A DNA stretch of 64,000 bases from Microbacterium sp. 1.5R (GTDB taxonomy: Bacteria; Actinomycetota; Actinomycetes; Actinomycetales; Microbacteriaceae): positions 3,038,001 through 3,102,000 of the forward strand of contig NZ_CP018151.1 in the NCBI RefSeq assembly GCF_001889265.1. Direction: 5' to 3'. Under the pieces are notes generated by a model that was given only the letters and a program-made list of their open reading frames with translations, ran no database searches and was not told the origin of the DNA. The translations under genes were made by a program, and so were the position numbers. Shown piece after piece: positions 5,037-17,354 of the stretch (within the stretch, counting starts at the first letter, position 1; each line of letters opens with the position of its first letter).

Positions 5037-5127
5037 TGGCGGTGACGGTGGGATTTGAACCCACGGTAGGGGGTTACCCTACACAACTTTTCGAGAGTTG
5101 CACCTTCGGCCGCTCGGACACGTCACC
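5037..5127 (-). tRNA. tRNA-Ser(CGA)
   Basis: On the minus strand the acceptor arms GGTGACG and CGTCACC pair, followed by discriminator G and an encoded CCA at 5037-5039. The anticodon stem CAACT/AGTTG encloses the loop CTCGAAA, giving anticodon CGA (reads UCG). A long variable arm (TGTAGGGTAACCCCCTACC region) and the T-loop GGTTCAAATCC are both present, as expected for a class II serine tRNA. Length is 88 nt plus CCA. A terminator hairpin follows. Confidence 0.95.
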
Positions 5128-16004: not shown

Positions 16005-16415
16005 TCAGGCGTCGAGGGCCTTGAGCAGCTCTTCGGGCGAGGCCTGCATCGGGTGCGGTCCCGCGATGTCGAGGAACACCGTGGTGATCGGGTGCGCGCC
16101 GAGGAACTTCCGCAGCCACTCAGCGCTGTAGATGCCGACCCCCGGCGGGAGGTTCGCCGGCTTGTTCTTGGCATCGCTGAACAGCAGCAGCGCCAGATCG
16201 CCCGAGTTGGGGTCGCGATAGGTCCAGACCTCGCCACTGTCGAGAGGATTGTCGCGGGCGCCGGGCTTCACGAGCGGCACGACGGTGGTGCCGTGGCGCA
16301 GTGCGAGAGCGACCGCCGCGATGTCCTGCTTCTCCAACGCCTGGGCGAGGGCATCCGACCGGAAATCCTCAGGTGCGGGCTTGCTCTTCGCGGATTTCGA
16401 CTTCTTCGCTGCCAT
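16005..16415 (-). CDS. SseB-like domain protein
   Basis: A 136-residue cytoplasmic protein. The start at 16415 is chosen as the first ATG giving a sensible N-terminus (MAAKKSKSAKSKPAPEDF), after which the SseB N-terminal-domain pattern appears (GTTVVPLVKPGA, DLALLLFSDAKNKPANLPPG, GPHPMQASPEELLKAL). The lysine-rich first 12 residues are probably disordered. SseB-family domains are widespread in actinobacteria and have no settled function. It reads toward the repeat array. The SseB call is moderate. Confidence 0.6.
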   Translation of the reverse strand: MAAKKSKSAKSKPAPEDFRSDALAQALEKQDIAAVALALRHGTTVVPLVKPGARDNPLDSGEVWTYRDPNSGDLALLLFSDAKNKPANLPPGVGIYSAEWLRKFLGAHPITTVFLDIAGPHPMQASPEELLKALDA

Positions 16416-16467
16416 GCATCCAGCATATTCAGCGGATGCCGCAGCGCGGTCCGAAACCGAGCCGGGA

Positions 16468-16610
16468 GAAGAAAGGGGCCCTCTCGAGTCATCCATTGGG
16501 GACTGGGGTACTCGAGAGGGCCCACGGACCCTCGGGCGGCATGTCGAAGCGCTGGGGACGCTGTGCTCGACGCCACTGGGGATGGCATGCGCCGCAAGTC
16601 TGCGAGGGTC
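16468..16610 (-). ncRNA. candidate small RNA with UCCCCAG hairpin loops
   Basis: The predicted transcript starts at about 16610, seven bases after a good -10. Its 5' GACCCTCG (16610-16603) pairs perfectly with CGAGGGTC (16534-16527), closing a multi-branch domain. Inside are hairpin A, GCCA-TCCCCAG-TGGC (16586-16572), and hairpin B, AGCG-TCCCCAG-CGCT (16562-16548), with an outer GTCGA/TCGAC clamp. The two loops are identical. A 14-bp terminator stem follows, and its loop again holds ACCCCAG and TCCCCAA. C-rich loops of this kind pair with G-rich ribosome sites in other sRNAs, and actinobacterial 6C RNA has a similar layout; identity with 6C is unproven. No open frame fits. Confidence 0.65.
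16469..16523 (-). terminator. intrinsic terminator of the candidate small RNA
   Basis: A perfect 14-bp stem, GGGCCCTCTCGAGT / ACTCGAGAGGGCCC (16523-16510 with 16489-16476), has a 20-nt loop and is followed on the minus strand by CTTTCTTCTC, a modest U-rich tail. Confidence 0.75.
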
Positions 16611-16616
16611 ACTCCA

Positions 16617-16645
16617 ATGGTATCCCAAAGAAACAGCAGTGTCAC
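16617..16645 (-). promoter_or_regulatory. sigma70-type promoter of the candidate small RNA
   Basis: The -35 is GTGACA (16645-16640), the spacer is 17 bp, and the -10 is TACCAT (16622-16617). The predicted +1 at 16610 is the first base of the closing stem. Confidence 0.65.
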
Positions 16646-16694
16646 CCGAAACTGAGTGCAGGACTGTATTCAAGACCTTTGGCTAGTTTTTACC

Positions 16695-17354
16695 TCAATA
16701 GAGGAGGATCTGCTTCGTCGTCGTGCCCTTGAAGCCGCCGATCTCGACAGCGACGTGATACGACGCTCCGCCGCCGGGAGCTCGCGGCCGATTCTCGTCC
16801 GCGCAGGTCTCGACGCTCGACCGCGTGCGGTCCCAGGTGACCGGCACCTTGCTCGTCACGGTCGCGCCGGCGGTGAGCGTGGCGACCATGCTGCTCGGGT
16901 TCTCCTGGCAGTCGGTCGACGTCCACCAGACATCGGTGCCGCTCGAAACCGTCATCCGCTGAGTCGTTGACCCCACATCGATCGCGCAGTCGGTCGACCC
17001 GCGGTTCGTCAGCGATATCGACAGCTGCGGCAGCACCCCGGGATCGTACGAATCGGCATCCGTCACGGCAGCCACCTCGACGTCCGTGGCCTCGCACGCG
17101 ACGATCCCGGGCGTCTCATCGGCCGACGGCTCAGGAGACGGCGACTCGGCTGCGGGTGGCTCGGAGGTCGTGGCATCCGGCGACGGGGATCCCGAGGCCG
17201 AGGCACTCGGCGAGGGCGTCGCCTCGGCGGCGCTGGCCCACGGGCGTGCCAGGAGCAGCCACACCGCGGCACCGATGACGGCGACGAGCAGGATCGCCGC
17301 GACGAGGGTCACCAATCGTCGGCGACGATAGACGGCGGCGGAGTGGCGAGGCAT
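16695..17354 (-). CDS. membrane-anchored extracytoplasmic protein, conserved hypothetical
   Basis: A 219-residue protein. A short basic N-terminus (RRRRL) leads into one membrane span at residues 14-37, then a low-complexity Pro/Ser/Ala/Glu linker (about 45-83), then a compact globular domain with six cysteines or fewer (ACEATDVEV, TDCAIDVG, STDCQENP, ETCADENRP). The layout fits an exported, tethered beta-rich domain resembling DUF4232-like proteins; I do not recognise a function. It lies 9 bp downstream of the argA-like gene and may share its transcript. Confidence 0.7.
   Translation of the reverse strand: MPRHSAAVYRRRRLVTLVAAILLVAVIGAAVWLLLARPWASAAEATPSPSASASGSPSPDATTSEPPAAESPSPEPSADETPGIVACEATDVEVAAVTDADSYDPGVLPQLSISLTNRGSTDCAIDVGSTTQRMTVSSGTDVWWTSTDCQENPSSMVATLTAGATVTSKVPVTWDRTRSSVETCADENRPRAPGGGASYHVAVEIGGFKGTTTKQILLY

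Follow-up and report, generated by a model that had tools for sequence, protein, structure and literature searches.

C-loop RNAs of Microbacterium, complementary G-loop RNAs and a shared candidate operator suggest a little-explored RNA control circuit

The P1 locus, its fold and its neighbors

Does the interval between two minus-strand genes of Microbacterium sp. 1.5R encode an independent RNA, and what would such an RNA recognize? An earlier note, made from the DNA letters, had proposed a small RNA there with repeated UCCCCAG loops. We analyzed this locus within a window of 64,000 nucleotides (the whole stretch of DNA examined) and in related genomes. Both a real, conserved RNA and its structure are well supported: P1, of ~135 nt, lies on the minus strand (16610-16476, 135 nt plus a short tail). 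Its parts and neighbors, in window coordinates, are as follows.

16695..17354, minus strand: upstream gene, encoding a 219-aa protein (open reading frame; no Pfam match)
16640..16645, minus strand: -35 element GTGACA (promoter scan); GACA stands here in 12 of 16 P1-class loci (by eye)
16617..16622, minus strand: -10 element TACCAT after a 17-nt spacer (promoter scan); GATACC is retained in 15 of 16 P1-class loci
16476..16610, minus strand: small RNA P1, a C-loop RNA (fold z, -5.49; covariation; 118.4 bits with covariance model R1, a score that is not independent because P1 is one of the 21 sequences used to build R1)
16603..16610, minus strand: 5′ arm of the closing stem, GACCCUCG (fold; both-side changes at 3 of 8 pairs among 11 orthologues)
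16572..16586, minus strand: hairpin 1, GCCAU-CCCCA-GUGGC (fold; compensated stem variation between sub-classes)
16548..16562, minus strand: hairpin 2, AGCGU-CCCCA-GCGCU, within a longer stem, 16571-16543 (fold; covariation)
16527..16534, minus strand: 3′ arm of the closing stem, CGAGGGUC (fold; pairs with the 5′ arm)
16476..16523, minus strand: terminator hairpin, 14-bp stem with CCCCAGUCCCCAAUGG in the loop (fold; stem and loop recur in own-genome paralogues)
16005..16415, minus strand: downstream gene, encoding a 136-aa protein (MAAKKSK...); TANNCT just 5′ of the ATG

Promoter and terminator scans covered the 321-nt stretch from 16400 to 16720. The sole promoter-like site (shuffle mean, 0.1) was GTGACA-17-TACCAT at 16645-16617 on the minus strand, the promoter that the earlier note had read, and +1 falls where the note had put it, at 16610, the opening base of the 8-bp closing stem GACCCUCG/CGAGGGUC. 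The segment 16610-16460 had a minimum free energy of -73.2 kcal/mol, compared with -52.2 ± 3.8 kcal/mol for 200 dinucleotide shuffles, none of which was as low. Two hairpins carry the sequence UCCCCAG as proposed, but not as a 7-nt loop; in the fold, the loop of each is CCCCA (5 nt), with a U·G wobble as its closing pair. The 14-bp terminator stem (GGGCCCUCUCGAGU/ACUCGAGAGGGCCC) and the two further CCCCA motifs inside it are likewise present, the first motif being partly paired (CCA/UGG) in the fold. As fold and covariation show, the sequences exposed by P1 are thus CCCCA, in each of two hairpin loops, and GUCCCCAA, in the loop of the terminator. The U-tract behind this long, strong stem is weak (CUUUCUUCUC), and a simple terminator scan of 16400-16720 did not call the terminator. 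Sequence predictions show P1 with a sigma-70-type promoter and a terminator hairpin of its own, from which we infer that it is transcribed.

The earlier labels of the neighbors, SseB-like and DUF4232-like, could not be upheld, as neither the 136-aa nor the 219-aa protein had a Pfam match at E ≤ 0.01. A downstream gene on the same strand adjoins both P1 and P3 loci (P3 is a paralogue described below), with a strong hairpin between RNA and gene, as might be seen if P1 were a cis-acting leader or attenuator of that gene. We consider such a role very unlikely. Among 19 loci viewed by eye, a start was found in 17 (at L002 and L004 none was found within 90 nt), and in 17/17 TANNCT lies a few nucleotides before the ATG, 3′ of the terminator. 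This arrangement suggests that the downstream gene has a separate, leaderless promoter of its own, which makes it unlikely that P1 serves as its leader. The P2 and P4 paralogues adjoin other genes, and no alternative antiterminator was noticed.

Conservation, paralogues and the relation to 6C RNA

A blastn search with 206 nt gave matches in 19 of 58 genomes (own genome included), 18 of them within the genus; the match outside it (G043) spans 26 nt. Of 16 P1-class loci, 14 have two or more copies of UCCCCAG and 2 have one, and the terminator-loop sequence AGTCCCCAA is retained in 15 of 16. Across 11 P1 orthologues, the hairpin stems are nearly invariant; changes on both sides affect four pairs, of which three belong to the closing stem and one to the inner stem, and the P1 orthologues alone show little covariation in the two hairpins.

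Terminator matches elsewhere led to further RNAs of like build. The genes flanking P2 are, by Pfam, shikimate dehydrogenase-like on one side and cold-shock on the other; P3 occupies the P1 position in other species, and P4 is located elsewhere and has a CCCCCC loop. Alignment A6 combined P1, P2, and P3 (21 sequences); three P4 sequences were left out of A6, and of R1, because MAFFT misplaced the first hairpin of P4. A6 had 91.4% paired cells (81.4% ± 0.9% when shuffled; 33 to 50% in slid controls), 84 both-side-changed cells (36.6 ± 5.4 when shuffled), and a covariation of 0.372 (0.201 when shuffled), a value reached in 0 of 500 shuffles. The loop letters were invariant or almost so while the stems covaried. 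The earlier note's proposal of an independent small RNA stands, with stems and loops conserved in relatives and a fold z of -5.49.

The terminator stem is almost identical among the paralogues, as it would be if the element were a mobile repeat of palindromic form or no more than a repeated terminator. Such a reading has next to no chance of being right, as orthologues stay in place, the stems differ with compensation, and the promoters are conserved.

At E ≤ 0.01, R1, built from the three sub-classes P1, P2, and P3, detected members in 37 of 59 genus genomes, some of which had been used in building it. Among 199 family genomes, two matched R1 at E ≤ 0.001, and these were Microbacterium as well; since R1 is tuned to Microbacterium, absence elsewhere holds at its sensitivity only. 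Weak R1 matches on the other strand are echoes, produced by the palindromic terminator. The P1 class is a multi-copy RNA family with several paralogues per genome. A further candidate from the model search, P5 (own genome, C1:1152621; 21.6 bits, E = 0.045), has GUCCCCAGC loops twice and is, by its score, a weaker candidate member. At L082 (G017 C11:131000-133500), L085 (G012), and L080 (G074), two to three C-loop RNAs lie within ~1.2 kb, on partly opposite strands.

6C RNAs are defined by two hairpins whose loops have at least six C residues. The earlier note had suggested that P1 is a divergent member of this class, and the two are built on the same principle, combining C-rich loops with a C-loop terminator; a CCCCCC loop is present in P4, and a 6C-like RNA (28.3 bits, under the cut-off of 47) lies ~85 nt downstream of P2 on the same strand. 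In the Rfam scan, however, RF01066 did not match 16300-16800 at E ≤ 10 and gave nothing at gathering in the whole window (where the sole Rfam match at gathering is a tRNA gene at 5040-5127, minus strand). P1 falls short of the 47-bit threshold of the 6C covariance model, and its loops (CCCCA, CCCCA, GUCCCCAA) have four C residues each, not six. RF01066 was above cut-off in 3 of 39 genus genomes; at E ≤ 1, matches were present in 30 of the 39. The eight genus RF01066 loci viewed (L068 to L075) are away from P1 and, where readable, beside acs. We take the 6C RNA of the genus to lie beside acs, with a tadA-like gene on its other side. In the own genome, too, a 6C-type hairpin pair (loops CCCCC and CCCCCC) is visible by eye upstream of acs, where RF01066 at E ≤ 1 does not call it. 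With a 6C-type locus separate from P1, it is quite unlikely that P1 is a divergent 6C RNA: the P1 family would work like 6C but does not belong to it. At L026:1634-1694, a 6C-like short RNA with a CUCCCCCCG loop lies between P2 and the cold-shock gene, with the palindrome described below over its -35 region.

A shared candidate operator and the G-loop RNAs

The palindrome TGTCCCC-N6-GGGGACA precedes the promoter of several family members. The operator test took 60 of 104 matches listed (echoes and terminator-only matches left out; the window's own match is L001). When one mismatch was allowed, 14 of the 60 had the palindrome within 110 nt, 12 of them at -50 to -53. At L082 minus and L085 minus it stands at -85/-86 and is the neighbor's site. 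No best match under three mismatches was found in 368 gene upstreams, and no site with two or fewer mismatches was found in 464 kb of the own genome.

As TGTCCNCCNNNNGGNGGACA, this candidate operator was present in 55 of 59 genus genomes (131 sites), compared with 1 genome for the reversed control. The own genome has exactly two exact copies, C1:56272-56291 and C1:2264799-2264818, which precede the 6C-like RNA beside P2 and a G-loop RNA; P1 and P2 themselves have no such operator upstream. We found no open-licence report of such RNAs in Microbacterium or of the palindrome TGTCCNCCNNNNGGNGGACA.

Among the 72 of 131 operator sites that were viewed, 11 precede 6C-like RNAs (-10 at 18 nt), 8 precede G-loop RNAs (-10 at 14 nt; 7 orthologous to the own-genome one, that one included), and 7 precede C-loop RNAs (-10 at 20 to 22 nt). 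Other G-loop transcripts behind the operator are those of L186, L193, L197, and L199, and 41 of the 72 sites had no C- or G-loop RNA recognized by the criteria used. TGGGGA occurred 61 times around operators versus 7.4 expected, a count that we gave no weight because ~24 occurrences, at nine sites, are probably the antisense of P2-type RNAs. U-GGGG-A hairpins numbered 7 versus 0.28 expected; those at L139 and L158 are antisense of P2, which leaves 5. Outside the genus, TGTCCNCCNNNNGGNGGACA was found in 26 of 148 genomes (control, 0). Four of the 18 extra-genus operator loci viewed (L321, L324, L327, and L328, in other Microbacteriaceae genera) pass a loose C/G-motif flag and the other 14 do not, so the system looks largely genus-bound.

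Two further arrangements were seen. L186 (G001 C5:3206287 onward) comprises the operator, a leader with four TGGGGA motifs, a lipoprotein-like gene (MMIARTSVSIAALALCVSLVACSGG), and a PKD/laminin-G relative (L268). At L147, L149, L152, and L173, operator-like palindromes adjoin a strong terminator and what appears to be the 3′ end of a gene, presumably pnp-like.

The G-loop RNA of the own genome (C1:2264749-2264999, apparently plus strand; L119/L205) lies behind the palindrome and has orthologues in nine relatives. All nine carry P1; since these genomes are close relatives, the co-occurrence may be mere kinship. In the G-loop loci a conserved -10 (TATTCT, TACTCT, or TACCCT) follows the operator, and the RNA is expected to start at GUAGCGGGG. 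Both sides are changed at 2 of 51 predicted pairs; because this covariation is weak, the probable strand was argued from the conserved -10. The RNA has a hairpin GUAGC-GGGG-GCUAC (AUAGC in two), a CUGGGGA hairpin in 9 of 10 loci (absent in G022), and UGGGG in the terminator in 10 of 10. CUGGGGA is the exact complement of UCCCCAG, giving a perfect 7-bp duplex of -11.9 kcal/mol, and the loops hold several copies of the target motif (GGGG, CUGGGGA, and UGGGG), as the loops of a CsrB-type sponge would. G074 has a C-loop RNA and a G-loop RNA that appear convergent on one terminator. A second own-genome locus (L210 minus, C1 near 123.9 kb), with two CUGGGGA and a terminator-like hairpin containing AGAGGGG, was rejected as a G-loop RNA for its unconvincing fold; it has no operator.

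Candidate targets, a possible mechanism and known systems

The earlier note had expected the C-rich loops to pair with G-rich Shine-Dalgarno (SD) sequences. In a first anti-SD test on 464 kb of the own genome, GGGG was enriched at SD positions and TGGGGA stood at 3 of 361 starts (-20..-11), a result that speaks against broad anti-SD action and turned attention to a narrow target set. The sample was enlarged to 1.264 Mb, with 1,094 usable gene starts from codon-usage gene calls. TGGGGA then lay at -22..-4 of 6 of the 1,094 starts, compared with 0 at -62..-44, so that matching G-rich sites at start codons do exist as expected while the extension to SD sequences in general fails. Enlarging the sample added three TGGGGA genes, none with YTGGGGA.

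The three genes with YTGGGGA encode two adjacent PKD plus laminin-G proteins (1,702 and 1,790 aa) and a 193-aa protein that seems to have a signal peptide; by inspection, all three look secreted. Automatic calls, by a heuristic that missed one clear signal peptide, gave 2 of 6 TGGGGA genes (P = 0.08, not significant) and 2 of 3 YTGGGGA genes (P = 0.019). One YTGGGGA gene has AAUUCAUU-GGGG-AAUGAAUU, an 8-bp hairpin directly before the ATG. Of the U-GGGG-A hairpins (at least 4 bp) in the sample, 2 of 21 lie at starts and most lie elsewhere; eight other loop sequences tested alike gave none at a start in five cases and one in three.

Fifteen of 39 genomes contained related PKD/laminin-G genes. 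Twenty loci were fetched and five dropped because the match started inside the protein; one of these, L261, has TGGGGA before two possible starts. In 10 of the 15 loci retained (9 if L255, whose start is far upstream, is dropped), TGGGGA precedes a possible start by 3 to 26 nt, compared with 6 of 1,101 sampled genes. The P value of 3e-17 is overstated, since the target idea arose from the three genes seen first, 2 of the 15 loci are among them, and some others are near relatives. The remaining 5 of 15 lack TGGGGA at a start. A U-GGGG-A hairpin of at least 4 bp is present in 7 of 15, on varying stems (GACU/AGUC, GGCU/AGUC, UCAUCU/AGAUGA, and GUCU/AGAC). The leader of the 193-aa gene reads UUCU-GGGG-AGAA, and [CT]TGGGGA is kept in 41 of 42 relatives, a count that says little on the motif alone because the whole leader is conserved. 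Few candidate targets were found.

Several findings are those expected of a trans-acting C-loop sRNA: by sequence, P1 has its own promoter and a terminator (with a weak U-tract), it carries conserved C-rich apical loops on covarying stems, and candidate targets with a complementary G-motif at the start codon exceed background. We consider it fairly probable that P1 is such an RNA, pairing with GGGG hairpins at ribosome-binding sites, and that the G-loop RNAs act as target mimics. The C-loops would pair with UGGGGA at the ribosome-binding sites of few mRNAs, where a U-GGGG-A mini-hairpin often presents it in its loop. To judge from complementarity, position, and recurrence, pairing would block translation, mainly that of the 193-aa secreted protein and of large surface proteins with PKD/laminin-G domains. 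The CUGGGGA-loop RNAs behind the shared palindromic operator, switched on by a putative regulator, probably titrate the C-loop RNAs. By analogy with B11 and sX13, which repress via G-tracts (see below), this pairing model would be the simplest.

In the CsrA/CsrB system, hairpin sites at the ribosome-binding site are combined with a multi-hairpin sponge RNA. The candidate system described here has a similar layout, and the main rival to C-loop pairing is that a protein reads the UGGGGA hairpins as repressor sites and the G-loop RNAs as a sponge, with the C-loop RNAs being separate or binding another protein. Mini-hairpins with a fixed loop at ribosome-binding sites, RNAs with multiple motif copies, and the presence of CsrA (PF02599) in the own genome would fit. 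We nevertheless regard a protein reader as unlikely, as the C-loops would be left unexplained as exact complements. The core of a CsrA site is A(N)GGA, and UGGGGA lacks it. CsrA itself is a doubtful reader: it is present in 5 of 13 genus genomes, uncorrelated with the RNAs, and is not found in G004, G005, or G012, which carry C- or G-loop RNAs.

Under the preferred reading, the reader would be an RNA with complementary loops and not the CsrA protein. The whole may then, more tentatively, be an RNA-only counterpart of Csr, a possibility that we put at somewhat below even: C-loop repressors, U-GGGG-A hairpins at surface-protein starts, G-loop sponges, and one regulator which, via TGTCCNCC-N4-GGNGGACA, would control C-loop and G-loop RNAs and, in G001, the four-UGGGGA leader before the lipoprotein-like gene and PKD relative, thereby setting which surface proteins are displayed.

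Other C-loop RNAs offer partial parallels. GsrN of Caulobacter is reportedly a C-rich loop sRNA with a G-rich target, like P1 in its loop but from another phylum and from a single gene. sX13 of Xanthomonas is described, in the portion of the report cited, as having three stems with apical C-rich loops and repressing mRNAs with GGGG near the start codon; the position and flanks of this 4G motif are not conserved (PMC3771888). Compared by description and across phyla, P1 is like sX13 in its C-rich apical loops and the GGGG near candidate start codons. Several candidate motifs of the P1 family, in contrast, lie in a ribosome-binding-site hairpin, and a mirror RNA is absent from the sX13 account as cited.

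The closest comparison is with B11/6C of Mycobacterium, whose C-rich loops, in the cited parts of the reports, pair with G-tracts at ribosome-binding sites and repress (PMC10470900, PMC12395582). Within those parts, C-loop repression in actinobacteria has so far meant this one RNA. P1 resembles it in its C-rich loops, one of them in the terminator. Unlike 6C/B11, which has two loops with six or more C residues, P1 has three (CCCCA twice and GUCCCCAA), belongs to a family with several paralogues per genome and a complementary G-loop RNA, has no RF01066 match, and has an apparent target that is often a U-GGGG-A mini-hairpin. Here, a multi-member family, a mirror RNA, a short candidate-target motif, and a specific operator are all readable from sequence and testable in soil bacteria. 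If the proposal is true, CCCC-GGGG hairpin recognition would serve as a network that includes a sponge of the same pattern, and the operator would provide a handle on the putative regulator. The most unusual features of the family are the complementary G-loop RNA and the shared operator.
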